Virus record (IMG/VR): IMGVR_UViG_3300035670_013255
Location: 1-39,219 of that record
Length of the DNA: 39,219 bases
Strand: one strand, 5' to 3'
From: a virus
Shown here: in pieces, positions 387 through 26,424 of the stretch
Position numbering within the stretch: the first letter of the stretch is position 1
How the letters are laid out: each line of letters begins with the position of its first letter
The notes under the pieces: model-generated
What the model was told of the DNA's origin: nothing
Databases searched by the model: none
What the model saw: the letters and a program-made list of their open reading frames with translations, nothing else
Made by a program: the position numbers and the translations under genes

Positions 387-704
387 ATGTTTGATATTCA
401 TAAATATGATAAACATAAATTTAATAAGAATAAAGCTATTAATGATAAAATAAAAGCACTTTATTTACTATTTGATAAATATGTAGCTGATTCAAAACTC
501 AATTATTTCCAATCACAAAAATTAATCAATATTTGGATTCTAAAATTTATCTCATATGAAGAATATGAAATGGCTGAGGCTTTTAAACAAAGAAAGATTC
601 GGATGTGGAGAGATTGGCGTAAAATTCACAGATTAACATCTGTTAGATTATTTTGGCGTGTTTGGAGGATTCGACTTAAAAAACTATTATATAATAATAT
701 ATAG
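387..704 (+). CDS. Hypothetical basic protein
   Basis: 105 residues, rich in lysine and arginine, with a strongly basic Trp/Arg-rich C-terminus (residues about 75-100, containing WRDWRK and RVWRIRLKK). Residues about 58-68 (YEMAEAFKQRK) vaguely resemble a UVR-type helical motif but not enough to name it. The start is supported by a late-type motif four bases upstream. The gene ends within the promoter region of the next gene. The basic tail could bind nucleic acid or a membrane surface; this is inference only. Confidence 0.65.
   Translation: MFDIHKYDKHKFNKNKAINDKIKALYLLFDKYVADSKLNYFQSQKLINIWILKFISYEEYEMAEAFKQRKIRMWRDWRKIHRLTSVRLFWRVWRIRLKKLLYNNI
694..703 (+). promoter_or_regulatory. Late-type promoter motif (ATAATATATA), 5 bases before ATG
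   Basis: The motif overlaps the stop region of the upstream gene and is followed by GTCAA and the ATG at 709. It supports 709 rather than the upstream in-frame start at 658 as the real start of the oxidase gene. Confidence 0.6.
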
Positions 705-708
705 TCAA

Positions 709-1869
709 ATGAAATGGATTAAACTTTTTGAAAGTTTCAAGGAAATTGAAAGTATTGTTTTAATTGGTGGTGGTATATCATCACTTTATGCAGCTTACTT
801 AATTAAAAAAAGATTTCCAAAGATTAAATATACCATTATCGAAAAGTCCGACAAATGTGGTGGGCGTGTTATTCAAGACGAACTAGACGGAGTGGATGTT
901 CCAACCGGTGCTCAATTTACAAGAATTGATAAAGATATATTATTAAATAAACTCTTAAAAGAACTTGAAATCGATTTAGATGTTTATAATTTAGATATTG
1001 ATTTCACATTCAGAAAGTCCGATGTTGATAGTATGATTTCAAAACTTAAAAAGAGTATGTCAAAATTCGATAGAAGTAAAATTACATTTTCCGAATTCGC
1101 AACTGATGTATTGGGTAAAAAAGAATATGAAAAATTTGTTGATATGATGGGTTATAGTGACTATGAAAATTCAGACTTTGAGGACACTATGACTAATTAT
1201 GGATTGGATGATAATTTACCTGGATATAAAGCAGCAGATGTTCCGTGGAATAAGGTTATTAAAAAGTTAATTTCAGAAGTAGGTCAAAAAAATATTGTTT
1301 TGAATACTGAAATCAAATCGATAAAAAATCAAAAGTCTAATTTTATTATTAACAATAAATGGAAGTGTGATGGTGTTATTATTGGAGTTACTATTAACTC
1401 ATTAAGAAAACTTATGGATGATTCTATTTACAATCAAATAGAGTCTCAGAGCTTCTTAAAAGTATTTGCTAAAACTACAGGAATGGAAGAAGTTGACAAA
1501 TATACAGTAGTAAACTCACCACTCAAAAAGGTTTTACCGGTAAAGAAAGATGTTTTTACAATCGCTTTTGCAGATAATAAAGATGCTACATATCTTAAAT
1601 CTAAAGATAAATCTTATTTTGAAAAGAGTTTATCAGAGCAATTTGATTCAGAAGTAAAGATTAAAAAAATGAAAAAATTCTTTTGGGAAGAAGGAACTCA
1701 TTATTTCAAACCACTACAAAAGAAATGGAAATCGAGAAAAGAGTTTTTAAAAGACGCACAACATCCACAAGACAACATTTGGGTAATTGGCGAAGTCGTT
1801 GCTGAAAAACAAGGTTGGGTGGAAGGAGCTTTAAATTCTGTAGAAAATATTTCTTTATTTAAGAAATAA
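709..1869 (+). CDS. FAD-dependent amine oxidase-like protein with capsid-targeting-like N-terminus
   Basis: 386 residues. Residues 16-53 form an FAD-binding Rossmann unit: the dinucleotide motif IGGGISSLYAA (19-29), an acidic residue ending strand two (E45) and GGR (51-53). The C-terminal GWVEGAL near residue 370 is the second FAD contact typical of the monoamine oxidase / protoporphyrinogen oxidase superfamily. The product is shorter than a typical 450-500 residue MAO. The first 15 residues, with MKWIKLFESF, precede the FAD fold and match the shared N-terminal peptide of this phage, suggesting virion packaging and cleavage after LFE. An upstream in-frame start at 658 would overlap the previous gene and lack the promoter. 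The substrate is unknown. Family call is firm; packaging is inferred. Confidence 0.85.
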   Translation: MKWIKLFESFKEIESIVLIGGGISSLYAAYLIKKRFPKIKYTIIEKSDKCGGRVIQDELDGVDVPTGAQFTRIDKDILLNKLLKELEIDLDVYNLDIDFTFRKSDVDSMISKLKKSMSKFDRSKITFSEFATDVLGKKEYEKFVDMMGYSDYENSDFEDTMTNYGLDDNLPGYKAADVPWNKVIKKLISEVGQKNIVLNTEIKSIKNQKSNFIINNKWKCDGVIIGVTINSLRKLMDDSIYNQIESQSFLKVFAKTTGMEEVDKYTVVNSPLKKVLPVKKDVFTIAFADNKDATYLKSKDKSYFEKSLSEQFDSEVKIKKMKKFFWEEGTHYFKPLQKKWKSRKEFLKDAQHPQDNIWVIGEVVAEKQGWVEGALNSVENISLFKK

Positions 1870-1873
1870 TTAT

Positions 1874-1881
1874 TATCTTTG
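1874..1881 (+). promoter_or_regulatory. Bacteroidota-type -7 promoter element TATCTTTG
   Basis: TATCTTTG fits TAnnTTTG and lies 19 bases before the ATG at 1901. No clear -33 TTTG is visible at the expected distance, so the call is moderate. Confidence 0.45.
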
Positions 1882-1900
1882 TTACTTAAAACATAAAATT

Positions 1901-2017
1901 ATGAATAGAAACGACTTTCAGGGTAAGAGAAAAGACCAATTGGAATTTTCTTATAAAATTACAGGAATTTCAATAGTATTATTAGGTTTAACTATTTTAG
2001 CAATTATTGTAGCATGA
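1901..2017 (+). CDS. Small single-pass membrane protein
   Basis: A 38-codon gene. The first 16 residues are polar and charged (MNRNDFQGKRKDQLEF), followed by one hydrophobic helix (about residues 19-38, ISIVLLGLTILAIIVA) that runs to the C-terminus. Its stop overlaps the next start in an ATGA arrangement (2014-2017), and a TAnnTTTG element lies upstream, both supporting a real gene. Function unknown. Confidence 0.65.
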   Translation: MNRNDFQGKRKDQLEFSYKITGISIVLLGLTILAIIVA

Positions 2018-2586
2018 TAGATAATTTTGAACAAATTTCAGAACTATTGAAATTTGATACTAATGATGATTTCTACCATCTTCAGATTCTTAAGCGAAAA
2101 AAAGAGAATCCCGAAATTGGTTCAAATTCACAAGTAATTAAAACTTATTATGTTTACTCGGTTGATTACCTACATAGTATAAAACCAGAGATTATTAACC
2201 TCTGTGAATTTCATAATGCCAGAGCTTGTATAAATCTAAATGCAAGGTCTTTAGAAAGAGCTGCCTTTCACACTCTTAAAAAAATCACTGATATAATTAT
2301 GAATAAAGATTACAAATCTGTTCATAAAGCATATGACTCTGTTTGTGGAACTTTTTGTACCGACAGAGACAAATCTTGGATAATTGATATTGATGTAAAG
2401 GATTTAAATGAAGTAAGTAGAATTTCTGATATTATTTGTTTGGTTGAACCTGTTGGTAATAAAACCATTTCCGTAGTTGAAACTAAAAATGGATACCACT
2501 TGATTTCTAAACCTTTCAATCTTTCTAAGGTCGATATACATCACGATATACATAAAAACAATCCAACAATTCTTTATATAAAATAA
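2014..2586 (+). CDS. Conserved phage protein, possibly AEP/primase-like
   Basis: 190 residues, translationally coupled to the small membrane protein by ATGA. Visible features are an RxCINLNARSLERAAF segment (about 71-86), a strand with DID (about 125-127) and a GYHLISKPF segment (about 159-167). This order (Arg/Ser-rich helix, DxD strand, G-x-H strand) resembles the core of archaeo-eukaryotic primase-like folds, but no zinc site is present and the protein is short. I treat the primase-like label as a hypothesis. The following gene starts five bases after the stop, so the two are probably co-transcribed. Confidence 0.6.
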   Translation: MIDNFEQISELLKFDTNDDFYHLQILKRKKENPEIGSNSQVIKTYYVYSVDYLHSIKPEIINLCEFHNARACINLNARSLERAAFHTLKKITDIIMNKDYKSVHKAYDSVCGTFCTDRDKSWIIDIDVKDLNEVSRISDIICLVEPVGNKTISVVETKNGYHLISKPFNLSKVDIHHDIHKNNPTILYIK

Positions 2587-2590
2587 CAAT

Positions 2591-2818
2591 ATGGAACAAT
2601 TTACAAACATGATGAATCAATTCATCGAGATGCAACAAAAAACTCAAAACTTTTGGCAAGATGCTTTTAAAACCTCTGGAAAATTAACTGAAGATTACAC
2701 CACCATTATGGATAACTCGATTAAATTCCACCAAGCAGCCATTGAATATCACACTTCTATTGTTAAAATGATGGAGGCTATAAAAGATACTCAGGAAGTT
2801 CTTCTTAGAAAGAAATAG
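2591..2818 (+). CDS. Small helical protein (phasin-like composition)
   Basis: 75 residues, predicted almost entirely alpha-helical, Met/Gln-rich at the N-terminus (MEQFTNMMNQFIEMQQK) and without membrane segments. The heptad-like pattern suggests a coiled-coil or helical bundle reminiscent of phasin-like proteins, but I do not claim that family. It starts five bases after the preceding stop and ends in a hairpin shared with the convergent LamG gene. Confidence 0.65.
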   Translation: MEQFTNMMNQFIEMQQKTQNFWQDAFKTSGKLTEDYTTIMDNSIKFHQAAIEYHTSIVKMMEAIKDTQEVLLRKK

Positions 2819-2835
2819 ATAATTGAAATCTATTT
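2813..2835. terminator. Bidirectional hairpin between convergent genes
   Basis: AAATAGAT (2813-2820) pairs with ATCTATTT (2828-2835) across a 7-base loop. The stop codons of both convergent genes lie within or next to the arms. The stem is AT-rich and weaker than the other terminators here. Confidence 0.5.
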
Positions 2836-3540
2836 TCCAAATCGAGATTTATGAACTTTATAGTTATGTAATATTTCCGAGTCTGTTAGAGCCTTTGAAT
2901 ATATCATCACATTATAAATGTTACCACCAAAGTAACCTTCAAAACTAGGTGTATTATTACCACCAATTCTAACAGAATTTGTAGATATATTAAAACTTGT
3001 TAGTATTAAAGATGATGATTGAACCAATGAGCCATCAACATATATCTTTAGTAACCCATTTATAACATCAATAATAGCAACAGCATTTATTAGTTGATTT
3101 GTATATGATAGTGGTGAGATTATAGACTCATTTGAAAATCCTGTATTACCTATACCAACATTGAGCTCACCAGTCGTTAAAAAAGCAAAAACATATTGCT
3201 CATAATATTGGAGATAATTATTTTGCTTAAATATAAATGGTGCATAAGCTCCATTGTATGTTCCATTATATTCTATCCAAGCACATAAAGTAATTGATTG
3301 TGTAGGATTTAGTGATGGATCGTTTGGTATATCTATAAAATCATCAACTCCATCAAAATAGATATTTCCAAAATTAGAAGTACTAAATGTGGGAGAATTA
3401 TTAAATAATCCGTTATTTTTTTCACTCGTTAGATCATTCCAATTGGAATCATAACCTGAATAAGATTTTTTGTTTGCTCCATCTAGATATAGTACTAAAT
3501 CATCTGTTATTATTCTACCACCACCTTGTAATGTACTCAT
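2830..3540 (-). CDS. LamG/concanavalin-like tail or surface protein
   Basis: 236 residues. The N-terminus (DDLVLYLDGANKKSY, then NWNDL) and the following FDGVDDFIDIP, ITLCAWIEY, LKIYVDGSLV and NVMIYSKALTDSEILHNY segments are the successive landmarks of a LamG-type jelly-roll. Such proteins are common in the tails of Bacteroidota phages, where a role in binding surface glycans is plausible. It is a paralogue of the next gene on the same strand. Its ATG overlaps the stop of a 24-codon upstream gene (TAATG), so translation is probably coupled to it. Confidence 0.85.
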   Translation of the reverse strand: MSTLQGGGRIITDDLVLYLDGANKKSYSGYDSNWNDLTSEKNNGLFNNSPTFSTSNFGNIYFDGVDDFIDIPNDPSLNPTQSITLCAWIEYNGTYNGAYAPFIFKQNNYLQYYEQYVFAFLTTGELNVGIGNTGFSNESIISPLSYTNQLINAVAIIDVINGLLKIYVDGSLVQSSSLILTSFNISTNSVRIGGNNTPSFEGYFGGNIYNVMIYSKALTDSEILHNYKVHKSRFGK

Positions 3541-3614
3541 TATATAAATCTCTTTTTTAATACATCATCTAAATAAAATACATCTAATTTATCGATTACA
3601 AGTGTTTCAACCAT
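3540..3614 (-). CDS. 24-residue leader peptide gene upstream of LamG gene
   Basis: Reads MVETLVIDKLDVFYLDDVLK then KRFI and stop. Its ATG is four bases from a TATATA late-type motif, exactly the spacing seen at larger genes, and its stop TAA shares a base with the ATG of the LamG gene. Promoter, start and coupling together make it more than a chance frame. Function unknown; it may act only to deliver ribosomes to the downstream start. Confidence 0.5.
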   Translation of the reverse strand: MVETLVIDKLDVFYLDDVLKKRFI

Positions 3615-3618
3615 AAAC

Positions 3619-3628
3619 TATATATAAT
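3619..3628 (-). promoter_or_regulatory. Late-type promoter motif, 4 bases before ATG
   Basis: On the minus strand ATTATATATA is followed by GTTT and the ATG at 3614. It is the only clear promoter candidate for the 24-residue ORF plus the LamG gene at 3540. Confidence 0.5.
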
Positions 3629-3648
3629 TTTTGACAAATGTTATAGGA

Positions 3649-4359
3649 CTATAATCCAAATCTTGACTTTGTGGCATTATAGTTCTGAAGAACTTCTGAG
3701 GCTGATAGGGATTTTCCTCTATAAATACGGAAAATTGGAATTCTACCAATAAATGCAACATCACCCTCCGTTCTGTTTCCCAATTTTGCAGTAGTGGATC
3801 CTAAATTCGACCAATTAAAAGTGGTTCGGGTTACGGATGTATATTCAACTCCATTAATTGATAATCTAATATTAGTTCCATTTTTGACCGCAACAAGTTG
3901 ATACCAAGTATTAAAAGATATAGTAGGTGATGAAACAGAGACTACTGGTTCCATAACACCAGTTGCTCCATCTCCACCTATAACAAAGTTTCCACCGGGT
4001 CTTGAAATATACATAGTGGTTGAGTTTACATTTCCACTAACATCAATTCCAAATATATTTGACCTAAAGAGATTAGACCCAAAGGAAGTTTGATATAACC
4101 AAACTTCAATACTCCAATCACTAAAATTATTAAGACTGAGTAAAACATTCTGATTTATTTGAGCATATCCACCATTAAATAATAAACTACCTGAATTACT
4201 AGCAGTATATGATATCGAACCAACTATTGAAAAGTTATTCCTATTTGCGGTGAGGTCTGACCAATTTGTTCCAGTTTCTGGATAAGATTTTATATTTGCG
4301 GAATCTAAACAAACATATAATCCATCAGTAACTATTTTAGGTGAATAGTGAAAAGCCAT
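3649..4359 (-). CDS. LamG/concanavalin-like tail or surface protein
   Basis: 236 residues, the same length as its downstream paralogue. Starts MAFHYSPKIVTDGLYVCLDS, with ANIKSYPETGTNW matching the ANKKSY/NWNDL landmark of the other copy. WSIEVWLYQ, WYQLVAVKNGTNIRLSINGV and IFRIYRGKSLSASEVLQNYN are jelly-roll strands. Expected to be virion-exposed and possibly receptor binding; that role is inferred from family and location. The start is fixed by a perfect TTAATATATA motif four bases upstream. Confidence 0.85.
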   Translation of the reverse strand: MAFHYSPKIVTDGLYVCLDSANIKSYPETGTNWSDLTANRNNFSIVGSISYTASNSGSLLFNGGYAQINQNVLLSLNNFSDWSIEVWLYQTSFGSNLFRSNIFGIDVSGNVNSTTMYISRPGGNFVIGGDGATGVMEPVVSVSSPTISFNTWYQLVAVKNGTNIRLSINGVEYTSVTRTTFNWSNLGSTTAKLGNRTEGDVAFIGRIPIFRIYRGKSLSASEVLQNYNATKSRFGL

Positions 4360-4363
4360 AAAG

Positions 4364-4373
4364 TATATATTAA
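4364..4373 (-). promoter_or_regulatory. Late-type promoter motif TTAATATATA, 4 bases before ATG
   Basis: Minus-strand TTAATATATA, then CTTT, then the ATG at 4359 of a tail-type gene. A good reference example of the class, since the product is structural and the spacing is typical. Confidence 0.65.
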
Positions 4374-4417
4374 TCTAAACCTAGGTCTTTTAATTTCTTT
4401 TGCAATTTTTTTTCATG

Positions 4418-4903
4418 TTATTCATCTTTAAAGGTGAATAGCTCTTTCATAAATTCAATGAAATAGTTTTGATTTTCTATATTATAAGTTTCTATACCTC
4501 TGAATTGAATTTTCTTTGCCTTTTTTCGATGAATTGAATAACTATTCATAATAAATCGATATTCAACATAATTATTGGTATCTGGTTTGGTAGCAGGATA
4601 TAGCAAATCTTTTGTATTATCTTCATAGAATATGGTTATGATGGACTGGTCTGGGTTAATATTTTTGGGATAGTAAGTATAAAGATGAAGACCAACCTTA
4701 TTTGTGTCTAAACTATCAGATACAACACCAACAACAATAAAATCACCATCTTCTAATGGTGACTTGAAATCCATTATTGAATTTTTATATCTTCGAGTTA
4801 ATTCAAAACTATTGACAGAGTCTTTAATATAAAATCTTGAAACAGTAGATTGTGAGAATACCACCTCACTGATTAATAAGATGATTGTGAGTATTTTAAT
4901 CAT
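4418..4903 (-). CDS. Secreted protein with flavobacterial signal peptide
   Basis: 161 residues. Residues 1-18 form a signal peptide (Lys, a hydrophobic core, then VVFSQ) with predicted cleavage next to Gln, typical of Bacteroidota. The mature part is polar and looks beta-rich, with no domain I recognise. Its start overlaps the end of the preceding gene by eight bases, placing it last in a minus-strand operon with a T9SS-tagged protein. It probably acts in the periplasm or outside the cell during infection; the precise job is unknown. Confidence 0.7.
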   Translation of the reverse strand: MIKILTIILLISEVVFSQSTVSRFYIKDSVNSFELTRRYKNSIMDFKSPLEDGDFIVVGVVSDSLDTNKVGLHLYTYYPKNINPDQSIITIFYEDNTKDLLYPATKPDTNNYVEYRFIMNSYSIHRKKAKKIQFRGIETYNIENQNYFIEFMKELFTFKDE

Positions 4904-5162
4904 TGATTAGTTTATTTAGATTTTTATTTCTTAGAAACTCTTGAAAAAGTGTTTTATGAACTGTGCAACTGATATTAGAAAAGTATTTATATTTTTTTAC
5001 TTCACCAATTTTTTTGAAATTGACATTGTGTTTTATAGTAAAGGTCTCATTTTTTTCATCAATCGATAGTATTTCAATAGATGGTGTAGTTTCTTTATTT
5101 GACCAACATAACCTACTCTCTAGGTAATCTTTGTAAATTTGAAAATTATTGTCTAATAACAT
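4896..5162 (-). CDS. Hypothetical protein
   Basis: 88 residues from the ATG at 5162 (MLLDNNFQIYKDYL); an ATG at 5186 in the same frame would add eight residues and increase overlap with the upstream gene. The sequence is charged, has no signal peptide or membrane segment, and contains two cysteines that do not form a clear metal motif. It lies between two genes for exported proteins with short overlaps on both sides, implying co-translation. No function can be given. Confidence 0.6.
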   Translation of the reverse strand: MLLDNNFQIYKDYLESRLCWSNKETTPSIEILSIDEKNETFTIKHNVNFKKIGEVKKYKYFSNISCTVHKTLFQEFLRNKNLNKLIND

Positions 5163-5709
5163 TAAATCTTTTTTCTTTAAGACCATCGTATAAAATTATA
5201 ACATATCTACCAGATTTCAATTCACTAACATCGATTGAATTAGAGGTCAAATTGAACTGATTTACAATCAATCCCAATTCATTAATAATAATTATGTTTT
5301 TGATTGGTCTTTCCGATTGAATAAAAAACTTATCATGAGAGGGAATTGGATATAATTTAGTTTCAATTTCAGTTACAACTTCTTCTTCATTAGTCACATT
5401 ACAGAAAGAAAATGTAAAAATTATGTTTGTTGAAAATTGTGTTTTACATTCTTCAACACAAGGACAAGATTGCTCTGGAGTTAAACAAACAGTGATAACA
5501 TCAGCAGTGTCTGGAAATAAATATTTCCAAGCTACTAAAGCAGAATCATAAGATAAAAGTATTTGACCACTGGAACCAGAAATTGTGTCTGTGTAGGTTC
5601 CACTGAGTGTATATTGACAAACTGGACTTGTAACAAAAATGTTACCTGACCTAAACTGCGCAAAAGTTAAATTTGCAAATAATAAAAGTAATAATGTTAA
5701 TGTTTTCAT
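5146..5709 (-). CDS. Secreted protein with C-terminal type IX secretion (Por) sorting domain
   Basis: 187 residues from the ATG at 5709, which forms an ATGA overlap with the upstream gene; an in-frame start at 5736 is less likely. Residues 1-18 are a signal peptide ending LTFAQ. Residues about 119-187 match the T9SS type A sorting domain: LYPIPSHDKFFI, IKNIIIINELGLIV, IDVSELKSGRYVIILYD and final KEKRFNVIR, corresponding to the family's YPNPaxd, i-i-D-xxGkxv, idlSxLxxGvYiv and k-ix pattern. The central part has several Cys (SCPCVEECKT, 81-90). In Bacteroidota this domain directs proteins through the outer membrane and is cut off by the sortase PorU. A phage gene with it implies use of the host T9SS. 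Confidence 0.8.
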   Translation of the reverse strand: MKTLTLLLLLFANLTFAQFRSGNIFVTSPVCQYTLSGTYTDTISGSSGQILLSYDSALVAWKYLFPDTADVITVCLTPEQSCPCVEECKTQFSTNIIFTFSFCNVTNEEEVVTEIETKLYPIPSHDKFFIQSERPIKNIIIINELGLIVNQFNLTSNSIDVSELKSGRYVIILYDGLKEKRFNVIRQ

Positions 5710-5972
5710 AATAAAAAAAAGTGATTGTCTTCCCATTCTGTTTTAAGTTTATTTTCTGTTTCAGTTGAAACACTAACAGAAACTGGAACTTTTGTTTTTT
5801 CGTGTTTAGAATATCTGAAGAAACAAGTATTATTTAAGTGATACTCAACTTTGATATACAAATCCTCCATAGCACAGTTGATAGAAGTTTTAGAATAGCC
5901 TTCAAGTTCAATCAATCTAAAACATCTTGGACACTTTATAAGTTTTGTCTTATATTTTTTTGTCTCATTCAT
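5706..5972 (-). CDS. Small protein with CxxC, possible zinc binding
   Basis: 88 residues starting MNETKKYKTKLIKCPRCFRL. CPRC (residues 14-17) is a knuckle-like pair; further cysteines lie near residues 33 and 51 but are not regularly spaced. A TAnnTTTG element four bases upstream sets the start at 5972; a non-ATG frame extension to 5999 is discarded. It is the first gene of an operon that continues into the T9SS-tagged and secreted proteins. Function unknown. Confidence 0.65.
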   Translation of the reverse strand: MNETKKYKTKLIKCPRCFRLIELEGYSKTSINCAMEDLYIKVEYHLNNTCFFRYSKHEKTKVPVSVSVSTETENKLKTEWEDNHFFLL

Positions 5973-5976
5973 AGAA

Positions 5977-6007
5977 CAAATATAAAAATTATTTTGCAAA
6001 GTGCAAA
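5977..6007 (-). promoter_or_regulatory. Bacteroidota-type promoter (TTTG-19-TATATTTG), leaderless
   Basis: On the minus strand TATATTTG (5977-5984) lies four bases from the ATG at 5972. A TTTG (6004-6007) is separated from it by 19 bases. This matches the -33/-7 pattern used by the Bacteroidota housekeeping sigma factor and predicts an mRNA that starts at about the ATG. Confidence 0.7.
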
Positions 6008-6642
6008 ATAGAAATTGTAATTAAAAGTAAACTTATTACTATGAAATTAAATTTAGCATGTAGTGAAGTTGCTGAGTCTATAGCTTCATACTCACACTTA
6101 TCAAAAGAAAAAGATTGTTCATAATGTTTATAGAATGAATTTTTATATCTGATTGAAAAAATGTAACCTATGAAACAAAGTAAAATGGCCGCAAATACTG
6201 GAACACCAACTATCATGTGTATAAATCCAAATTTGATAGAACTGATAATCCTATCTTTTACGGAAAATATTTGTGACCTAAAACTGAGCTCTTCCATTTT
6301 AGCCAAATAAGGTAAAATAGCAATCAGACAGAGATAAAATATTATAGTACCGATAAACGCAAAAGTGGATGTTCCTTCTGTTAGACCTGGATTTGCAATG
6401 AGATTTGTTCCAGAACCACCTAAAAGTTTAATCCAAGAAAATTTCAAAAATGATGGGAGTTCTACCATTGATAGTAGAGATAAAGTAGTTATTGTTCCTA
6501 AGAACAGAAGAAAGGCCCAGAAATAATCTTTCAGTTTACCGAAATAGATTTGTTTGAATAATTTTGGTTCATCCAAAAAAAATCTGATACCGTTCCAAAA
6601 TGTCAGACTAACTAGAATAAAAGTGATGATTGATAAAATCAT
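5989..6642 (-). CDS. Multipass membrane protein
   Basis: 217 residues with about five hydrophobic segments (near 1-20, 38-60, 92-112, 135-165 and 198-215). There is a signal-anchor-like start (MILSIITFILVSLTFWNGI) but no recognisable transporter or holin motif. ATGA overlap with the upstream YgjV-like gene shows co-translation. The final codons carry the promoter of the next operon. Inner-membrane location is inferred; activity unknown. Confidence 0.7.
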   Translation of the reverse strand: MILSIITFILVSLTFWNGIRFFLDEPKLFKQIYFGKLKDYFWAFLLFLGTITTLSLLSMVELPSFLKFSWIKLLGGSGTNLIANPGLTEGTSTFAFIGTIIFYLCLIAILPYLAKMEELSFRSQIFSVKDRIISSIKFGFIHMIVGVPVFAAILLCFIGYIFSIRYKNSFYKHYEQSFSFDKCEYEAIDSATSLHAKFNFIVISLLLITISILHFAK

Positions 6643-6848
6643 TTGTTTTGTTTTAACTTAATTAAGTTTATTATTATTACAATTGTGTTCATCAGGACTA
6701 CCGGATAAGCTTCGTGAAAATATCCATAGATTATAAACATTGAACAAGCAATAGAGTTTATGATTCTGAGTTTCCTAATATCTGTCATTAACATGGATAT
6801 AAGAACTATAATCATAGATAAATATCCCCAACTTTCTAAAAGTGTCAT
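6639..6848 (-). CDS. YgjV-family-like small inner-membrane protein
   Basis: 69 residues with three hydrophobic helices. The order ESWGYLSMIIVLISMLMTD, RKLRIINSIACSMFIIYG, and PVVLMNTIVIIINLIKL matches the Imp-YgjV pattern (helix, then RxLRxxN, then YG, then a final N-containing helix). The family has no well-established biochemical role. ATGA overlaps at both ends place it in the middle of a three-gene membrane operon. Confidence 0.65.
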   Translation of the reverse strand: MTLLESWGYLSMIIVLISMLMTDIRKLRIINSIACSMFIIYGYFHEAYPVVLMNTIVIIINLIKLKQNK

Positions 6849-7117
6849 ATAACTGGATAATTTATTTGATATGGTTCAATTAAATCTTTTGTATCTTGTT
6901 TTACAAGTGACTCGTAAATAGGAATTAAATCATCATTCATTTTACTTTCACAACAACTAAGAACGAAAAGATACTGGTCATTTGATAGATGAATGAATCC
7001 AGACCTATCGGGATTTAAGAATTTATTTTTTACATTCTTCATTTTATTAGAGTCTATTGTATCTAATACAAAAACTTCTAATGTCGCAATTTGGTTAGAG
7101 GTTAATTTTAATTTCAT
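6845..7117 (-). CDS. Hypothetical small cytosolic protein
   Basis: 90 residues, mixed helix and strand, no signal or membrane segment, with a vicinal cysteine pair (SCCES, near 54-58). It is the first gene of the minus-strand membrane operon and overlaps the next gene by ATGA. A TATATTTG element lies about 41 bases upstream. No family recognised. Confidence 0.6.
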   Translation of the reverse strand: MKLKLTSNQIATLEVFVLDTIDSNKMKNVKNKFLNPDRSGFIHLSNDQYLFVLSCCESKMNDDLIPIYESLVKQDTKDLIEPYQINYPVI

Positions 7118-7189: not shown

Positions 7190-7915
7190 ATGGACTTAGG
7201 AAAAGAATTCAAAAAATACGCAAAAAGTGAAGGCATATCTTCACTTAACTTACATCACTTCGAAAATAGTATGACACCATATATATTAGAAGAAAGAGAA
7301 ATGAGAGTTACTCAAATGGATATTTTCTCAAGATTGATGAGAGATAGAATCTTATGGGTCGCAGGTGCAGTAGACGATAACATGTCTACGATCGTTCAAG
7401 CTCAGTTAATGTTCTTAGATTCGGTTGAAAAGAAAGATATTACAATGCACATCGACTCACCTGGTGGTTCTGTTAAATCAGGATTATCTATGGTAGATGT
7501 TATGAACTATATCAACTCCGATATTTGCACAATCAATACCGGCATGGCAGCATCTATGGGATCGGTTTTACTCTCATCCGGGACTAAAGGTAAAAGAGCA
7601 TCATTGAGATTTTCAAAAGTTATGACACATCAAGTAAGTCACGGAACTCAAGGTAATATTCAAGATACTCGTATAAATCAGTTAGAAGCTGAAAAATACA
7701 ACTACATTCTATTCAAAATATTAGGTGAGAATTGTGGTAAATCTTATAAAGAAGTTATTGAATGGTCGAGAAGAGATCGTTGGTATAACTCTGATGAAGC
7801 TCTAAAGTTTGGCCTTATTGATGAAATCATAGGTATTGATAAAAGTCCATCCATTGAAAAGTTATTAGAAGGATTTGACGAGTACTACAAAAACGAAGTA
7901 TTAGATAGAAGTTAA
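7190..7915 (+). CDS. ClpP-type serine protease
   Basis: 241 residues of the ClpP (S14) family. The catalytic triad is visible: Ser122 in GMAASMGSVLL, His147 in VMTHQVS and Asp196 in RRDRWYNSDEALKFGLID. The DSPGGSV oxyanion-loop motif is at 89-95. The N-terminal 45 residues replace a propeptide-like region and do not show a capsid-targeting pattern. It lies just upstream of a tagged protein. In phages, ClpP-like enzymes may process head proteins or redirect host proteolysis; which applies here cannot be told from sequence. Start is ATG at 7190 after an A-rich leader without Shine-Dalgarno. Confidence 0.9.
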   Translation: MDLGKEFKKYAKSEGISSLNLHHFENSMTPYILEEREMRVTQMDIFSRLMRDRILWVAGAVDDNMSTIVQAQLMFLDSVEKKDITMHIDSPGGSVKSGLSMVDVMNYINSDICTINTGMAASMGSVLLSSGTKGKRASLRFSKVMTHQVSHGTQGNIQDTRINQLEAEKYNYILFKILGENCGKSYKEVIEWSRRDRWYNSDEALKFGLIDEIIGIDKSPSIEKLLEGFDEYYKNEVLDRS

Positions 7916-7964: not shown

Positions 7965-9497
7965 ATGATTAAAAGATATTTAGACTTTGTTAATGAATCT
8001 TTAGAACTTCTATTAGAATCAAATGTGGTCTACTCTGACAAACTTAGAACCGTCTTAAATAAGATAGGTGGTCCAATTGCTCAAAAACTAATTGAAATTG
8101 AAAATACTGATTTACCAGTTAGGTCAAACTTTTTTGATATAGTTCCTAAAAAGAACGACTCTATCAACTTTATGCCTGATAGAAAGGCGCAAGAGATTTT
8201 AGCAGATAAAACAGTTAGTGTAAGATTTATTGGATCTGATTCGGGTTGGTTAAAACATTCACCAGCTAATGATGAAATCTTTGCAACACTTGGATATACA
8301 CCACAAGGTGCTAATCCTTATAGACCAAATTCTTCAGACATTGGAACAATAGTATCTAGTTATGTATCACCGACATCCGGTAAGACGTATTGCTATGTTA
8401 ATTTTTCAGACACATCTGGGATCGAATTAGGAAAAGGTGTTTACAATAAAGAAAAGTTAAGAGAGACCACTGACCAAAAGGATAAACTTTGGGGCAAAGG
8501 TCGTCAAGAAATTGGAGTTGGTAGAGGAATTAGAGCTTTACTTTTAACAACTGGTGAAAAGTTTTTAGATAAAGATATAGAAGCATTTGTAAATCTTTAC
8601 AAAGCAACTCTTGATAAGATGAATGATAAATTTTCCTTATTCGAGGTTGTTGATGGAGATGATATATATCATTGGTATCAAAGAGAAAATTACTTTGAGA
8701 GAAAAGGACAGTTAGGTGGTTCTTGTATGGGATCAGCTAGAGAATCTTGGCTTGAGATCTATACCACCAATCCAAATCAAGTAAAATTGATTATTATGAA
8801 ATCCGAACAAGATGATTCTATGATTATAGGTAGAGCTCTTCTTTGGACTCTTAGAGATGGTAAGAAGTTTATGGATAGAGTTTACACTATCAATGATTCT
8901 GATATACAGTTATTTAGAGAATACGCAAAAGAAAATGGATGGTATGCTAAGTATCATAATGGTAGCACATCTAATAATTCATCAATTGCACCTGAAGGTG
9001 GTGTAGTAAATTTAGACCTAACTGTAATTTTAGACAAGAAAGATTACGAACATTTTCCTTATTTAGATACTTTAAAATACTTTACACCAGGAACTGGTAA
9101 GCTAAACAACACTAGTGGTGATTACTTATTGGAAGATACCGGTGGTGATTATGTAAGATGTGATTCTTGTGGTGGAAGTGGAACTCAAGAGTGTTATGAT
9201 TGTGATGGAAGAGGAGAACAAGAGTGTTATGATTGTGATGGTAGCGGAACAGAGGATTGTAATAATTGTGATGGAAATGGAACACAACCTTGCGATAATT
9301 GTGATGGAGAAGGTCAAATAGAAGATGAAGAAGGAAATTCAGAAGATTGTCCAGAGTGTGATGGAGATGGTCATAGAGATTGTGAAGATTGCGATGGTAG
9401 CGGAAAAATGGATTGTTCAACTTGTGATGGTGATGGTAGAAATGAATGTTCGTCTTGTGATGGTCGCGGCGAACATGAATGTCACGAATGTAACTAG
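7965..9497 (+). CDS. SCM/GRALLW-domain protein with ten DnaJ-like zinc-binding motifs
   Basis: 510 residues. Residues 1-20 (MIKRYLDFVNESLELLLES) match the shared capsid-targeting-like peptide with possible cuts after VNE or LLE. A middle domain (about 230-375) has WYQREN, GGSCMG (252-256), IIGRALLWTL (287-296), FMDRVYT (302-308) and FPYLDTLKYF, and is shared with the protein at 14001. Residues 399-510 contain nine CxxCxGxG units and a final CxxC, nearly all spaced 11 residues apart with one 19-residue linker. DnaJ has four such units binding two zincs, so this array could bind about five zincs. No J domain is present. Binding of unfolded protein or nucleic acid is plausible but inferred. Confidence 0.8.
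   Translation: MIKRYLDFVNESLELLLESNVVYSDKLRTVLNKIGGPIAQKLIEIENTDLPVRSNFFDIVPKKNDSINFMPDRKAQEILADKTVSVRFIGSDSGWLKHSPANDEIFATLGYTPQGANPYRPNSSDIGTIVSSYVSPTSGKTYCYVNFSDTSGIELGKGVYNKEKLRETTDQKDKLWGKGRQEIGVGRGIRALLLTTGEKFLDKDIEAFVNLYKATLDKMNDKFSLFEVVDGDDIYHWYQRENYFERKGQLGGSCMGSARESWLEIYTTNPNQVKLIIMKSEQDDSMIIGRALLWTLRDGKKFMDRVYTINDSDIQLFREYAKENGWYAKYHNGSTSNNSSIAPEGGVVNLDLTVILDKKDYEHFPYLDTLKYFTPGTGKLNNTSGDYLLEDTGGDYVRCDSCGGSGTQECYDCDGRGEQECYDCDGSGTEDCNNCDGNGTQPCDNCDGEGQIEDEEGNSEDCPECDGDGHRDCEDCDGSGKMDCSTCDGDGRNECSSCDGRGEHECHECN
9159..9494 (+). repeat. Degenerate 33-bp tandem repeat encoding CxxCxGxG units
   Basis: Nine and a half in-frame copies of a 33-base unit (11 codons, TGT-nnn-nnn-TGT-GAT-GGT pattern) with one longer unit of 57 bases after the fifth. 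Codon choices vary among copies, so the array is diverged rather than newly expanded. Confidence 0.8.
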
Positions 9498-15685: not shown

Positions 15686-16213
15686 TTATCTGACAAACAA
15701 CATTGTTCCAACAATTCTGTAGTTAAGAGAAGATTTAATACCAGTAGGATTTGAAAAATACTGACAATTAACACCAGCAAATACAAAGTCCCCAGTTAAT
15801 AATATCTTATTGTGTTTTGGGGAAGATTTCCATCCTTCAATAATTTCGGTAGACATTTTTTCTAAAATTGTGGTATCATCTACTTTATAGTTTTTACTGA
15901 TAGATAAAGCCACTTCAGCAATGTGAAGATATCTTTTTTTAGGAGCATAAAACTCATATCGATTAGTAAAGTCAACTAAAGTATCTTCAGTATGACCACT
16001 GATAGAATTCGGCCAGATATCCAAATTTTTTCTATAAAGATAAGATGTATGATGTTTAGCCGCTTTGAAAGTAGCAGTATCAAACTTAACTTCTTTTAAA
16101 CCTTTTTCAATTCTATACTGATTTACTTTTGTAAAAACCAAACTATCTAATTTAGTTTGAGAAAAACCTAAAATAGATAATAGTAATATGATAATTGTAA
16201 GTATTTTCTTCAT
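15686..16213 (-). CDS. Secreted CAP/SCP-domain protein
   Basis: 175 residues. Residues 1-19 are a signal peptide (KKILTIIILLLSILGFSQ). The mature part has the CAP signature: VNQYRIEKGLKEVKFD, then AAKHHTSYL, then GHTED, a helix with EIIEGWKSSPKHNKILL and FAGVNCQ. Bacterial CAP proteins are extracytoplasmic and of varied function. A TAnnTTTG promoter with TTTG at 18 bases lies 4 bases upstream of the ATG, so the gene is probably expressed early. It is convergent with the 14001 gene, eight bases apart. Confidence 0.8.
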   Translation of the reverse strand: MKKILTIIILLLSILGFSQTKLDSLVFTKVNQYRIEKGLKEVKFDTATFKAAKHHTSYLYRKNLDIWPNSISGHTEDTLVDFTNRYEFYAPKKRYLHIAEVALSISKNYKVDDTTILEKMSTEIIEGWKSSPKHNKILLTGDFVFAGVNCQYFSNPTGIKSSLNYRIVGTMLFVR

Positions 16214-16217
16214 ACTA

Positions 16218-16247
16218 CAAATATAATAAAAAAATTATAAAAACAAA
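16218..16247 (-). promoter_or_regulatory. Bacteroidota-type promoter (TTTG-18-TATATTTG), leaderless
   Basis: Minus-strand TATATTTG (16218-16225) is four bases before the ATG at 16213; TTTG (16244-16247) lies 18 bases further upstream. It overlaps the end of the preceding membrane-protein gene. Confidence 0.7.
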
Positions 16248-16750: not shown

Positions 16751-16858
16751 TTAAGATTTTGGTCCTAATCCTTTATCACGAATTGCATCTAAGTGTGTAA
16801 ATACAACACTCATGTGAGATTTTAACCTCATAAAAATATTTAGAAAAAAATTATACAT
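16751..16858 (-). CDS. Possible 35-residue coupled small protein
   Basis: Starts at an ATG that overlaps the stop of the RpiB-SiaC gene (AATGTATAA) and reads MYNFFLNIFMRLKSHMSVVF, then THLDAIRDKGLGPKS. Internal ATGs exist, so the true start could be later. Support is only the overlap and a non-random look; no promoter is seen. Confidence 0.35.
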   Translation of the reverse strand: MYNFFLNIFMRLKSHMSVVFTHLDAIRDKGLGPKS

Positions 16859-17654
16859 TTTGTTTTATTATCAAATTTATATTAAAAAACTTTTTCAAAG
16901 TTTCAACGTGTTCAATTAAATCTTCATCCTCATCGTCAACAAACCAATTTATATCTAAATTTTCTATTTTATCTTTTAAATGTTTTAACATTTCAAAAAG
17001 TGTTTTGTTAGAAGATGAGTTAAAATATTCCAAATCAATATTAAGTGTTAGCTTATCAAAATTAAATTTATCAACCTCTTGTATAACTTGTTTATAAAAG
17101 TGAATAGAATTTTCAGGTATAGACCTACCCTCAATTTCCATTTTAGAAATTTCTTTATTTATAGAAACATGTGGTGTTTTATCCGTCTTTGGGATAAAAA
17201 AGAAATTATTAGACTCATCAGTGAGTTTTATTTTATTAATTCTGTTCTGATGTCTACCACCCTCAAAAGCTGTTTTTAGAAAAATATCCACACAAGATAA
17301 TGCATCACTCTCACTAATGTATCTACCCGGTAAAACTAAAACATTAGCATCATTGTGTAATCTAGCCATCTCAGTGATTTCTTTATTCCAACAAAGAGCT
17401 GAACGAATATCATTCCATTTATTTGCTGCCATATTTATACCATTACCAGACCCACAGATTAAAATACCAATATCTGCCTTTTTTGTTGTTACATCTTTAC
17501 AAACAGCATGCGCAAAATCTGCATAGTCACAACTTTCTTTGGATAAACATCCCTTATCAAAAAAGGGTAAGTTTATTTGATTTAAATATGTTTTAATTTT
17601 CTCTTTAATTTCGTAACCAGCGTGGTCAGATCCTATTGAAATATGATTTATCAT
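16851..17654 (-). CDS. RpiB-family sugar-phosphate isomerase fused to a SiaC/DUF1987 domain
   Basis: 267 residues in two parts. Residues 1-148 are RpiB/LacAB-type: SDHAGYE (9-15), LICGSGNGINMAANK (65-79) with Cys67, His100 in HNDANVL and GGRHQNR (132-138), so the catalytic set for ribose-5-phosphate/ribulose-5-phosphate interconversion is present. Residues about 152-265 match the SiaC/DUF1987 family: PKTDKTPHVSI, IEGRSIPENSIHFY, LNIDLEYFNSSS, INWFVDDEDEDLIEHVETL. SiaC proteins are phosphorylation-controlled partners of diguanylate cyclase modules. The two domains are normally separate proteins. The usual YFNTSS is YFNSSS here. The isomerase could raise ribose-5-phosphate for nucleotide synthesis with the regulatory domain sensing a host signal; this is inference. 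A weak motif lies upstream. Confidence 0.85.
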   Translation of the reverse strand: MINHISIGSDHAGYEIKEKIKTYLNQINLPFFDKGCLSKESCDYADFAHAVCKDVTTKKADIGILICGSGNGINMAANKWNDIRSALCWNKEITEMARLHNDANVLVLPGRYISESDALSCVDIFLKTAFEGGRHQNRINKIKLTDESNNFFFIPKTDKTPHVSINKEISKMEIEGRSIPENSIHFYKQVIQEVDKFNFDKLTLNIDLEYFNSSSNKTLFEMLKHLKDKIENLDINWFVDDEDEDLIEHVETLKKFFNINLIIKQNV

Positions 17655-18938: not shown

Positions 18939-19397
18939 ATGAAACTTGCTTTTTTACTTATCATATTTATTTCAACATTTGGGTTTTGTCAAAACTCAGA
19001 GTCCTATTTTGCAATAAGACTAACCGAAGACTTATATGAACATTTTGATAGCTCAGGTGTATTAAGAATGGAGTATCCAGACACGTGCGAATGTGGATTT
19101 GAAATGTCATCAAAGGCTTGGATGTTTGCAAAAAGAATAGATGCTTATGATTCCTTATTATTAAATGAATTGGCAGATGAATGGTTGATTGATGATTTAT
19201 TAAATTCTTTAAAAAAGGAATTTAAGAAAAGAAAATTTGATAGTAAAGAAAGTATTTCTCATATTTACATCAATACCTCAATCATTCCACTGAGTAATAG
19301 ATTTAATATTTTTAGATGGAAGAGAAAAGTTACTTATAGAGTAAAAATGACAATTTATTATAAACCCGTAATTAAAAATGAAAAAAAAGAAAATTGA
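18939..19397 (+). CDS. Secreted protein, unknown family
   Basis: 152 residues. Residues 1-18 (MKLAFLLIIFISTFGFCQ) are a signal peptide; the Cys at 17 might instead indicate a lipoprotein, though the lipobox is not typical. CECGF near residue 50 is a cysteine pair. The C-terminal half is basic. No domain recognised. It overlaps the following gene by 20 bases. Confidence 0.65.
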   Translation: MKLAFLLIIFISTFGFCQNSESYFAIRLTEDLYEHFDSSGVLRMEYPDTCECGFEMSSKAWMFAKRIDAYDSLLLNELADEWLIDDLLNSLKKEFKKRKFDSKESISHIYINTSIIPLSNRFNIFRWKRKVTYRVKMTIYYKPVIKNEKKEN

Positions 19398-23707: not shown

Positions 23708-24139
23708 TTATTTATAAACTTTGAACGGCGCTGTTCTATTTTTATAATTAGGAAAATCTTTTTTGAAGTCTTCCAATCTAGGCTCAATATCATCAGACTT
23801 AATAATCCAAAATTGAGCACCAGCTTGTAATGCCTTAGATTGTTCTGTTGGCTCATTTGAAGAAGATATGATACCAATAACAACATGGTTTCCATATTGA
23901 TAGTTGATTCTTCTAATCAATTCAATTCCATCAAAAGATGATCCTACAATGTTCAAGTCTACGAAAACACACTCTGGTTTACCGTCGGAGTTTGCCATCC
24001 ACCCTTTGAATAATTTTTCTGCCTCGTCAGCACTTGTCATACTTTCTAAAGAAAGCGTAATATCTAAAAGACTACAAGCGTCTTCAAAAACTAAATGGAA
24101 TAAATCCTCATCATCGACTAATAAAATTGAATCAATCAT
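23708..24139 (-). CDS. Response regulator receiver protein (stand-alone)
   Basis: 143 residues from the ATG at 24139, which forms an ATGA overlap with the kinase stop (an upstream in-frame start at 24172 would overlap the kinase further). MIDSILLVDDED carries the acidic pair Asp9/Asp10; VFVDLNI gives phospho-acceptor Asp61; GIISSSNE contains the conserved switch Ser (about 92-94) and FWIIKSDD the Lys (114). There is no DNA-binding or enzyme domain, so it works by protein contact or as a phosphate shuttle. Direct coupling to the kinase gene makes it the probable partner. Confidence 0.9.
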   Translation of the reverse strand: MIDSILLVDDEDLFHLVFEDACSLLDITLSLESMTSADEAEKLFKGWMANSDGKPECVFVDLNIVGSSFDGIELIRRINYQYGNHVVIGIISSSNEPTEQSKALQAGAQFWIIKSDDIEPRLEDFKKDFPNYKNRTAPFKVYK

Positions 24140-26292
24140 ATACTTACTTTTATTTTTAATTTTGTCCCACATTCGGGCAATTTTTCTGCTGTTATTTCAA
24201 ATCCATGTTCGTGTAGTATGGATTTACATATGTTAAGACCTAAACCACTTCCTGTTTCTTGCTGCCCCTCTTTTCTAACATAAGGTTTTGATAAATGTTC
24301 AAATTCTTCTTGACTAATTCCCCTACCATTATCTTCGACACATATATAACTTTTTCTCAAACCGAATTGTTTTCTTTCGGCTTCAAAGTAAATCTTTACA
24401 AATTTTGTTGCACTATCATTATACTTAAGACCATTTCTTATCAGATTATCAATTGAGGTACAGAAAAGAGCCTCATTAACTACCAACACCGGTAAATTTT
24501 CATCTAAAATAACTTGTGACTTATAGGAAGTGCTTGATAAATAATCTTCTAAAATTAATTTTATATTACAAGCCGTTTTAGATAGAACTACTTCTTTTTT
24601 TACTAAGTTAGTAAACTCATATACTCCTTTGTAAACTTTCTGAGTATGTTTTAATCCCTCTTTTATCATTTTTAGAGGAGCTTCTATTTTTAGATTTTTT
24701 ATATCTTCCTCGGTTAGTCTTCTTTCTAATGAACTCACACCTCTTGGAATATAAGTGTTAATTCCTGAGTGCATATCATGTCTCAGTATTTTAGCAGCAT
24801 GTTCCAAGTAAGTATTTTTCTTGTCTATTTCTAATGATTGAATAACTTTATCGGTTATATCAGTCGCTATTTTCATTATACTTATAACACTTCCTTTATT
24901 ATCAAATATTGGATTATATGTCGCTTGAATCCAAACTTCTTTTCCATCTTTTGTTAATCTCTTAAATTCAGATGAAACAAATTGACCGGAACTTAATTTT
25001 TCCCAAAGTTCAACATATTCTTTTGTTGATTTATTTTCGATAAAAATACTATGATGTCTTCCAACTAACTCATTGAGTTCATAACCCATGGATTTGCAGA
25101 AGTTATTATTTGCAAATTTTATATCACCATTAATATCAAACTCAATAACCATATTTGATTGATTAATAGCATCCATTCTGTATCTAAAGTCAAGTTCTTT
25201 TCTTTTTAGTTCACTAACATCTTGTCTTATGGATGTAAATCCAATCAACTCATTCGTATCTGAATCAAATTCCGCCTTTATATAAGTATCAACATAATAT
25301 AGTGTTCCATTTTTAGCTTTATTAGTAACTATCATATTCCATATTTTTTTCTCTTTAATAATAGTCTTATACATTTCTTTCCAAAATTCCTTATTGTGTT
25401 GACCAGAGTTTACTATATTATGATCTTTCCCTAAAACTTCCTCCATACTATAACCAGAAACCTCTGTAAATTTTTTATTAACATAAGTAATTTTACCATT
25501 TGAATCTGCTTTAGAAATAAGTGTTGCTTCATCTATAAATTTTTCTATCTCAATCAATTGTTTCTTTTGTTTATTACCTTCTTTTATAGAATGTGCGAAT
25601 GAATAAAGTGTAGATAACATTTGAGAGAAATTTACCTCTAAACTATTCCAAATTCTTTTTTCTAAACTCTCAATACAAATTACACCAATTACTTTTCCAT
25701 CATACATTATTGGAACATCTAACATTGATTTTATTTCAAGTGGTTGTAAATAAGAATCTTTGAAACAACTAGTAGCTGGATGTGATTCAGCATCATTTGC
25801 CACTATTATAGGATCAACTTGTAAGTGATTAAAGTAAGGCTCAAAGTCTTTTTTTAAAAGCTCAGTGCCAGAATACCAATTATCTTCTTTTTTCACATAT
25901 AATTGTTGACAAATTATAGATGTTTTATCTTTATTATAAAGCCAAATTGAACATCTATCAGTACAAATCGAGTTACAAACTTCCTTTGTAAGCGACATTG
26001 CTCCTTCTCTAACTTTTCCATCATAAAAAGATTGATTTTGAGATTGTAGAACAATGACTTCTTTCAGTTTTTTCTGATAGTCAAATTGTTTAATAATTTG
26101 TTTATTTTTATCCAATAAGTCCTTTATCACAAAATAAAATGGTGGCAGAAATGAAAGGAACAAAATATATCCCATAGCTATCCTAAAGTCAGTAGCCTCA
26201 TAAAAATCAAAAACTAAAAGAGTTTGATTAAGAAAAAATAATATCATTATGATAGCTGCTAAATAGCAGGAAAATTTAGTAAGTTTTTTCAT
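24136..26292 (-). CDS. Membrane sensor histidine kinase with GAF and two PAS domains
   Basis: 718 residues. Two membrane helices (about 8-28 and 36-57), a GAF-like domain (about 75-235; DVPIMYDGKVIGVICIES), PAS domains at about 250-365 and 372-485, then the transmitter: HILRHDMHSGIN-type H-box with His505 (KILRHDMHSGIN), N-box Asp615-Asn616 (SIDNLIRNGLKYND), G1 box EDNGRGI (653-659) and G2 box GSGLGL (681-686). The H-box lacks the usual Pro after the His. All ATP-binding motifs are present, so the kinase looks intact. It sits in the host inner membrane with small or no periplasmic domain. A perfect late-type promoter lies five bases upstream of the start. Confidence 0.93.
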   Translation of the reverse strand: MKKLTKFSCYLAAIIMILFFLNQTLLVFDFYEATDFRIAMGYILFLSFLPPFYFVIKDLLDKNKQIIKQFDYQKKLKEVIVLQSQNQSFYDGKVREGAMSLTKEVCNSICTDRCSIWLYNKDKTSIICQQLYVKKEDNWYSGTELLKKDFEPYFNHLQVDPIIVANDAESHPATSCFKDSYLQPLEIKSMLDVPIMYDGKVIGVICIESLEKRIWNSLEVNFSQMLSTLYSFAHSIKEGNKQKKQLIEIEKFIDEATLISKADSNGKITYVNKKFTEVSGYSMEEVLGKDHNIVNSGQHNKEFWKEMYKTIIKEKKIWNMIVTNKAKNGTLYYVDTYIKAEFDSDTNELIGFTSIRQDVSELKRKELDFRYRMDAINQSNMVIEFDINGDIKFANNNFCKSMGYELNELVGRHHSIFIENKSTKEYVELWEKLSSGQFVSSEFKRLTKDGKEVWIQATYNPIFDNKGSVISIMKIATDITDKVIQSLEIDKKNTYLEHAAKILRHDMHSGINTYIPRGVSSLERRLTEEDIKNLKIEAPLKMIKEGLKHTQKVYKGVYEFTNLVKKEVVLSKTACNIKLILEDYLSSTSYKSQVILDENLPVLVVNEALFCTSIDNLIRNGLKYNDSATKFVKIYFEAERKQFGLRKSYICVEDNGRGISQEEFEHLSKPYVRKEGQQETGSGLGLNICKSILHEHGFEITAEKLPECGTKLKIKVSI

Positions 26293-26393: not shown

Positions 26394-26424
26394 TTTGCGG
26401 TCTTAAATCTTTTCCTTATATTTG
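26394..26424 (+). promoter_or_regulatory. Bacteroidota-type promoter (TTTG-19-TATATTTG), leaderless
   Basis: TTTG (26394-26397) and TATATTTG (26417-26424) are 19 bases apart, and the ATG (26429) follows after TATT. The best host-type promoter match in the window. Confidence 0.75.

Follow-up and report, generated by a model that had tools for sequence, protein, structure and literature searches.

The window analysed here, a 39,219-base IMG/VR virus contig, encodes a small protein, P0001, which carries a Sec signal peptide at one end and a C-terminal sorting domain (CTD) of the type IX secretion system (T9SS) at the other. We regard it as fairly probable, taking the explanation as a whole, that P0001 is a host T9SS cargo encoded as an accessory gene of a Mahaphage-type huge phage and has a role at the cell surface. 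This overall grading is a loose mean of the gradings of its two parts: routing of P0001 through the T9SS is, from its sequence, highly likely, and a surface-remodelling or exclusion role is put forward tentatively. The features on which the argument is built are collected in Table 1.

Table 1. Coordinates of P0001, its parts, its neighbours and the core phage gene within the window.
Feature	Position	Strand	Basis or remark
P0001, T9SS-tagged protein, 187 aa	5146..5709	(-)	ORF list and HMM matches
Sec signal peptide of P0001, residues 1-17, cleavage A17/Q18	5659..5709	(-)	Sequence, heuristic scan, Q-rule (PMC5837995)
N-terminal beta domain of P0001, residues 18-112, Cys-containing	5374..5658	(-)	Profile search, AlphaFold
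Type A T9SS C-terminal sorting domain, residues 119-187; G146 glycine, G167/Y169, basic C-terminus	5149..5355	(-)	HMMs, alignment, PDB 8glk_D/5ag8/5y1a
Gene upstream of P0001, apparently in the same operon, 88 aa, CxxC pair	5706..5972	(-)	ORF list
Gene after P0001 in the operon, 96 aa	4896..5186	(-)	Overlaps the P0001 3' end by 41 nt
Last operon gene, 161 aa, Sec-exported type, Q-rule signal peptide VVFS/QST	4418..4903	(-)	ORF list, heuristic scan
TATATTTG, Bacteroidota-type -7 box, 4 nt before the ATG at 5972	5977..5984	(-)	Motif scan
ClpP-like head maturation protease, core phage gene, places the window among huge phages	7190..7915	(+)	PHROGs, Pfam, homology

The 187-aa reading of P0001 begins at the ATG at 5709; an alternative ATG at 5736 would give 196 aa. 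Its signal peptide, MKTLTLLLLLFANLTFA followed by QF, comprises Lys2, a hydrophobic core, an alanine at -1 and a glutamine at +1, as scored with a heuristic predictor of our own making and not with SignalP. A glutamine directly following the signal peptide is known as the Q-rule of Bacteroidetes (PMC5837995), and it is encountered in P0001, in its neighbours and in nearly all of the phage CTD proteins. An earlier note, made from the letters alone, had read this minus-strand ORF as a protein with a signal peptide; the heuristic scan bears this out, and the three motifs that it had listed (LYPIPS, GRYVIILYD and RFNVIR) are all present in P0001. Sec-type proteins with a glutamine at or near +1 are also encoded at 15686-16213 (-), with a CAP/SCP domain, at 18939-19397 (+) and at 4418-4903 (-).

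P0001 belongs to a series of overlapping minus-strand genes (5972-5706, P0001, 5186-4896 and 4903-4418), in which its start codon overlaps the stop of the upstream gene within an ATGA at 5709-5706. Pfam searches yielded no match for the 96-aa product and no CTD in the 161-aa protein. The TATATTTG box ahead of the series recurs in the window at 16218-16225 (-) and 26417-26424 (+), as well as in relatives (L033, L065, L072, L080 and others); among the occurrences listed for the window and its relatives, a spacing of 4 nt to the ATG accounts for 15 cases, the next best spacing for 3. At this distance the box looks like a Bacteroidota-type promoter that would yield leaderless mRNAs. A scan for sigma-70 consensus promoters gave matches no commoner than in shuffles.

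The earlier note had further proposed a C-terminal Por-type sorting domain, with an HMM search as its check. In this search, P0001 lies above the curated cut-offs of both PF18962 (Por_Secre_tail; E=1.3e-7, 32.2 bits with a cut-off of 27, residues 119-177) and TIGR04183 (23.6 bits, just over the cut-off of 23), the latter match covering residues 119-185 of 187 and hence the very C-terminus. For a window of some 80 ORFs, an E-value of ~1e-7 indicates that the match is not due to chance, and P0001 was the single match when all six frames of the record were searched for the sorting domain. In an alignment of 12 phage CTDs, G146 is invariant and K181 nearly so. The glycine of the Lbeta3beta4 motif is required for secretion of RgpB, and CTDs can be species-specific (PMC11285876). 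G146, at the start of strand 4, is matched to this glycine, and the P0001 CTD carries both features of the type A motif, the strand-4 glycine and a basic strand-7 residue, the equivalences being judged by eye.

The predicted fold points in the same direction. An AlphaFold alignment of ten rows (the window and phage contigs) led to a mean pLDDT of 61, which rose to 74 when two bacterial relatives were added, with values of about 71-90 over the N-domain (residues 21-100) and of 73-81 over the CTD. The latter is predicted to form an Ig-like 3+4 beta-sandwich, as judged against 8glk_D and 5ag8. Searching the PDB with Foldseek retrieved 8glk_D, the NucA CTD in the T9SS translocon (TMt 0.80, 2.4 A, 25% identity, 75 columns), together with the RgpB CTD 5ag8 (probability 1.00) and HBP35 (5y1a), chain D of 8glk being the most specific PDB match of the P0001 model. 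The bulk of the Foldseek matches are generic tandem Ig proteins, as would be expected since P0001 is modelled as two small beta sandwiches.

With regard to the cargo, the N-domain is shared with chromosomal Bacteroidota T9SS cargos (L251 and L252) and, more weakly, with the phage proteins L128, L131 and L135. A profile made from the N-domain and the similar phage domains retrieved two proteins, L251 (G241) and L252 (G097), from a sample of 295 genomes of the bacterial class, and one weak match when sampling was widened to 396 genomes across the phylum. The two proteins are of the same length as P0001 (195-199 aa) and show a signal peptide, a Cys-containing beta domain and a type A CTD in the same order; unlike P0001, they are chromosomal, their neighbours being housekeeping genes (recG and pyruvate dehydrogenase; trpS and mnmG; names assigned by eye), and BLASTP aligns L251 with P0001 over its full length at 27% identity (E=4e-18, 183 residues). 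Compared with the phage MopE/PKD family alone, the N-domain shows a weak similarity (rank 2 against 2000 shuffles, one shuffle scoring higher), so that its kinship rests on the L251/L252 profile match and the full-length BLASTP alignment. No close homologues were found by a pattern scan of IMG/VR and GTDB genomes, by tblastn in INPHARED or in 21 related records, and no phage orthologue with the same architecture; PHROGs gave no match and a sequence search of the PDB nothing meaningful. Since its full-length relatives reside on Bacteroidota chromosomes, P0001 appears to have been captured, long ago, from a rare family of host T9SS cargos.

Judged by homology and synteny with complete Mahaphages of >630 kb, the window is a fragment of a Mahaphage-type huge phage. 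Its ClpP shows 72% identity to that of the nearest named genome, the 634,780-bp uncultured phage LR745206, within one 50-kb stretch of which several more window genes have counterparts; a DHH-like protein of the window matches LR756501 (735 kb) at 40% and also IMG/VR contigs of up to 204 kb. The four largest complete huge phages used for comparison (LR745206, 634.8 kb; LR756504, 636.4 kb; LR756502, 642.4 kb; LR756501, 735.4 kb) correspond in length to the four largest genomes in Al-Shayeb et al. 2020, which were placed in the Mahaphage clade and have a predicted replication in Bacteroidetes (PMC7162821). As to the host, the nearest sequences to the adenylosuccinate synthetase (PurA) of the window are from Bacteroidota, and the T9SS translocon protein SprA is present in 12/12 tested Bacteroidota genomes that are near by PurA.

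Several other products of the window may be noted. The 510-aa protein at 7965-9497 (+) ends in tandem CxxC(D/G)GxG zinc-finger-like repeats as in DnaJ, with no match to a J domain; at 16851-17654 (-), a ribose-5-phosphate isomerase B domain is fused to a SiaC regulatory domain; and a GAF-PAS-PAS histidine kinase (24136-26292, (-)) adjoins a likely receiver-domain protein (23708-24172, (-); by eye). In addition, an N-terminal leader of the MK-x-[IY]-x-x-[FY]-x-x-F-x-E type was found by a loose pattern in 11 of 49 window proteins (3.2 expected), which are unrelated and start at 709, 7965, 11124, 13097, 18873 (-), 33644 (-), 36236 (-), 36644 (-) and other positions. The capsid-targeting sequence of T4 resembles this leader, and by analogy the leader may mark proteins that are packaged in the head.

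T9SS tags are a recurrent feature of the related phages. PF18962 matches above the cut-off were obtained in each of the four largest complete phages and in two further records, G003 and G013 (21 related records searched), as well as in 10/50 further IMG/VR records (10/30 of the nearer ClpP group), and in none of 20 IMG/VR records of the sister ClpP group. PF13585, the type B domain, was detected in 14 of 42 records, with four copies in LR745206 and three in LR756502, and up to six tags of types A and B are found in one huge-phage genome. Neither type was detected in nine large control phages (G, P-SSM2, Atu_ph07, phiKZ, BF, RaK2, SCTP-2, XacN1 and Tenacibaculum phage PTm1), and Lak-B5 and LR756508 are devoid of a type A CTD. 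The trait is accordingly patchy, as a type A CTD is lacking in Lak-B5, LR756508, PTm1 and the 20 records of the sister group. Taken together, the HMMs, the fold, the signal-peptide rule, the related phages and the controls lend good support to the phage origin and T9SS address proposed in the earlier note, and use of the host T9SS by the phage would, for P0001, follow from sequence only.

The tagged proteins vary widely in cargo. Beta domains, MopE/PKD, Kazal, propeller and cohesin cargos are all encountered among these phages, and some cargos are of 500 aa and more. At the other extreme, L028 is a CTD protein of 117 aa, and in L157 (LR756502, 597571-597774; 116 aa) a type B CTD comes immediately after the signal peptide, without a cargo in between. 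L026 and L027 exceed the PF18962 cut-off in the six-frame search, but fall below it when scored over the entire protein (23.1 and 26.9 bits). L025 was not counted as a clear sorting signal, its CTD-like domain being internal (residues 84-154 of 446). A gene cluster conserved in G018, G029 and G003 (f19-f20-f21; L142, L150, L151) encodes a T9SS protein of ~640 aa with a cohesin domain, a small single-TM protein and an exported protein, and lies in part near a GH19-like endolysin.

Exchange of cargo can be followed at one locus of the relatives, where a tagged gene (f0) is located between f11 (87 aa) and f1, a peptidoglycan-binding, GH19-like endolysin (family assigned by eye), in five contigs. 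The cargo is an N-domain with MopE and PKD-like parts in four of these and, by Pfam, a Kazal-type domain in one. Comparison of L131 and L132 at the DNA level revealed 90-100% identity in the 300 bases upstream, 94% in the signal peptide and 87-100% in the last 240 bases, and between the two tags 17-40%, as for unrelated DNA. The allele is empty in another two contigs, G039 and G032: here the endolysin is directly followed by f11, ~125 bases off, with no tagged gene. Moreover, a hairpin/T-run lies just upstream of L128, L133, L135 and L136, with a promoter-like box at least in L136 (by eye). The exchanged cargos and the empty alleles indicate that phages gain, lose and re-fill f0 while keeping both address labels, and f0 of the relatives, as judged from these alignments, is a moron in its behaviour, with exchangeable cargo. 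No locus orthologous to the P0001 gene of the window was found in the relatives, and P0001 lacks the promoter and terminator of its own that would characterize a moron. Being an operon gene and not placed behind its own promoter, it is less moron-like than its relatives, and the history of gain and loss holds for the latter and not for P0001, which is situated elsewhere, inside an operon.

On the basis of the known pathway and of the tags read from the sequence, the following course may be proposed. P0001 would be transcribed as part of a short phage operon and directed through Sec by its signal peptide, signal peptidase I would cut before Gln18, and Gln18 would probably be cyclised to pyroglutamate. 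The SprA translocon would then recognise the folded Ig-like CTD, a host sortase would remove it, and the ~95-aa beta domain would end up attached to the cell surface or released. There, in what is a guess at its function, the displayed domain would most likely bind or shield some component of the infected cell's surface, for instance against superinfection. Exclusion or shielding is favoured in view of the marked variation of the cargos from one related phage to another, no particular enzyme being maintained among them. The swappable cargo and the moron-type presence and absence in the relatives fit superinfection exclusion and receptor masking, both raised in the earlier note, but do not prove them. 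Polymer degradation, its third suggestion, is rejected for P0001, as no catalytic domain was found.

A different view would be that P0001 is a captured host cargo which is still exported by the T9SS and of no use to the phage, that is, a neutral or slightly useful passenger. The location of its full-length relatives on Bacteroidota chromosomes, the patchy presence of the trait and the empty alleles at a syntenic locus of the relatives are all in line with this view; we nevertheless hold it to be rather unlikely, given that ORF, signal peptide and CTD are intact at only 27% identity to the chromosomal relatives, that the start codon is coupled to the upstream gene, that as many as six tagged proteins occur in one huge-phage genome and that the tags were kept while the cargo was exchanged. 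It is very improbable that P0001 acts as a decoy, with abundant small CTD proteins saturating the translocon or sortase and thereby blocking host surface proteins such as phage receptors and gliding adhesins: several phage CTD proteins are indeed very short, as exemplified by L157 and L028, but the ~95-aa beta domain of P0001 is well formed and conserved with host cargos, and other phages carry far longer cargos.

We likewise consider it improbable that the CTD is a mere Ig-like module of a periplasmic or virion protein without a working T9SS signal. Such a reading could draw on the generic tandem Ig proteins that make up most Foldseek matches; against it stand the specific HMM matches over the cut-offs, the agreement with 8glk_D, the placement of the domain at the extreme C-terminus of a protein that begins with a signal peptide, and the absence of such domains from the nine control phages. 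Finally, bacterial relatives of P0001, and surrounding genes (658-7117) that are almost without counterparts in the regions of the relatives searched, might point to bacterial contamination or a chimeric contig. This is scarcely credible and was rejected by synteny, as P0001 is overlapped at its start and stop by other genes of an operon of phage style, at a distance of ~1.5 kb from the core gene for ClpP, the window has homologues in LR745206 and many IMG/VR contigs, and tagged genes recur in complete huge-phage genomes.

Returning to the reading of P0001 as a phage-encoded T9SS cargo with a surface role, the relatives with several tagged proteins and swapped middles suggest a remodelling of the infected-cell surface. 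It is conceivable, although we advance it with caution, that huge phages of Bacteroidota possess a modular surface display, in which a conserved signal peptide and T9SS tag enclose a middle part swapped by recombination, so that a phage-specific coat on infected cells or lysates would alter who infects, attacks or binds. These observations carry the use by phages of a secretion machine of the Bacteroidota type, reported so far in a few cases, over to a clade of huge phages, and define particular tags and exchangeable cargos. Surface remodelling via hijacked secretion is directly testable, since T9SS genetics exists in Flavobacterium johnsoniae, and superinfection exclusion, if this is the role, would represent a new route to exclusion.

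Among known systems, NucA of F. johnsoniae (PDB 8glk) shares the CTD fold with P0001 and was resolved as a bound substrate of the T9SS complex. In its cargo part NucA is a nuclease, unlike P0001, which is without a recognised enzyme domain. In BFVD, one Caudovirales protein is annotated as being of the T9SS sorting-domain type. Phages of Porphyromonas gingivalis encode Q-rule signal peptides, as does the window, but no T9SS sorting domain is mentioned for them (PMC10367356). Phage-encoded T9SS cargo was reported for crAss-like phages in 2019 and for Cryophage in 2020, and the kind is thus already known; a report of T9SS-tagged proteins in huge phages was not found in the open literature, outside which most subscription papers lie. 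The crAss-like cluster 2 phages resemble the window in encoding T9SS sorting domains, there near structural genes, and differ in that their tagged proteins are BACON-domain proteins (PMC6949934). Cryophage, a 76-kb Bacteroidetes phage, encodes proteins with type A tags, as does the window phage, and its cargo varies between phage variants, as in the relatives; competition or superinfection exclusion was proposed by its authors (Bellas et al. 2020, PMC7468147). Its cargos are an enzyme or PA14, and P0001 is by comparison a small non-enzymatic beta domain in a huge-phage fragment. What is new here is the occurrence in phages of the Mahaphage type, the number of tagged proteins that one genome carries, the type B tags, the exchange of cargo between conserved tags and the empty alleles, and it is the Kazal, MopE/PKD and cohesin cargos, along with the type B tags and empty alleles, that set the relatives of the window apart from Cryophage.
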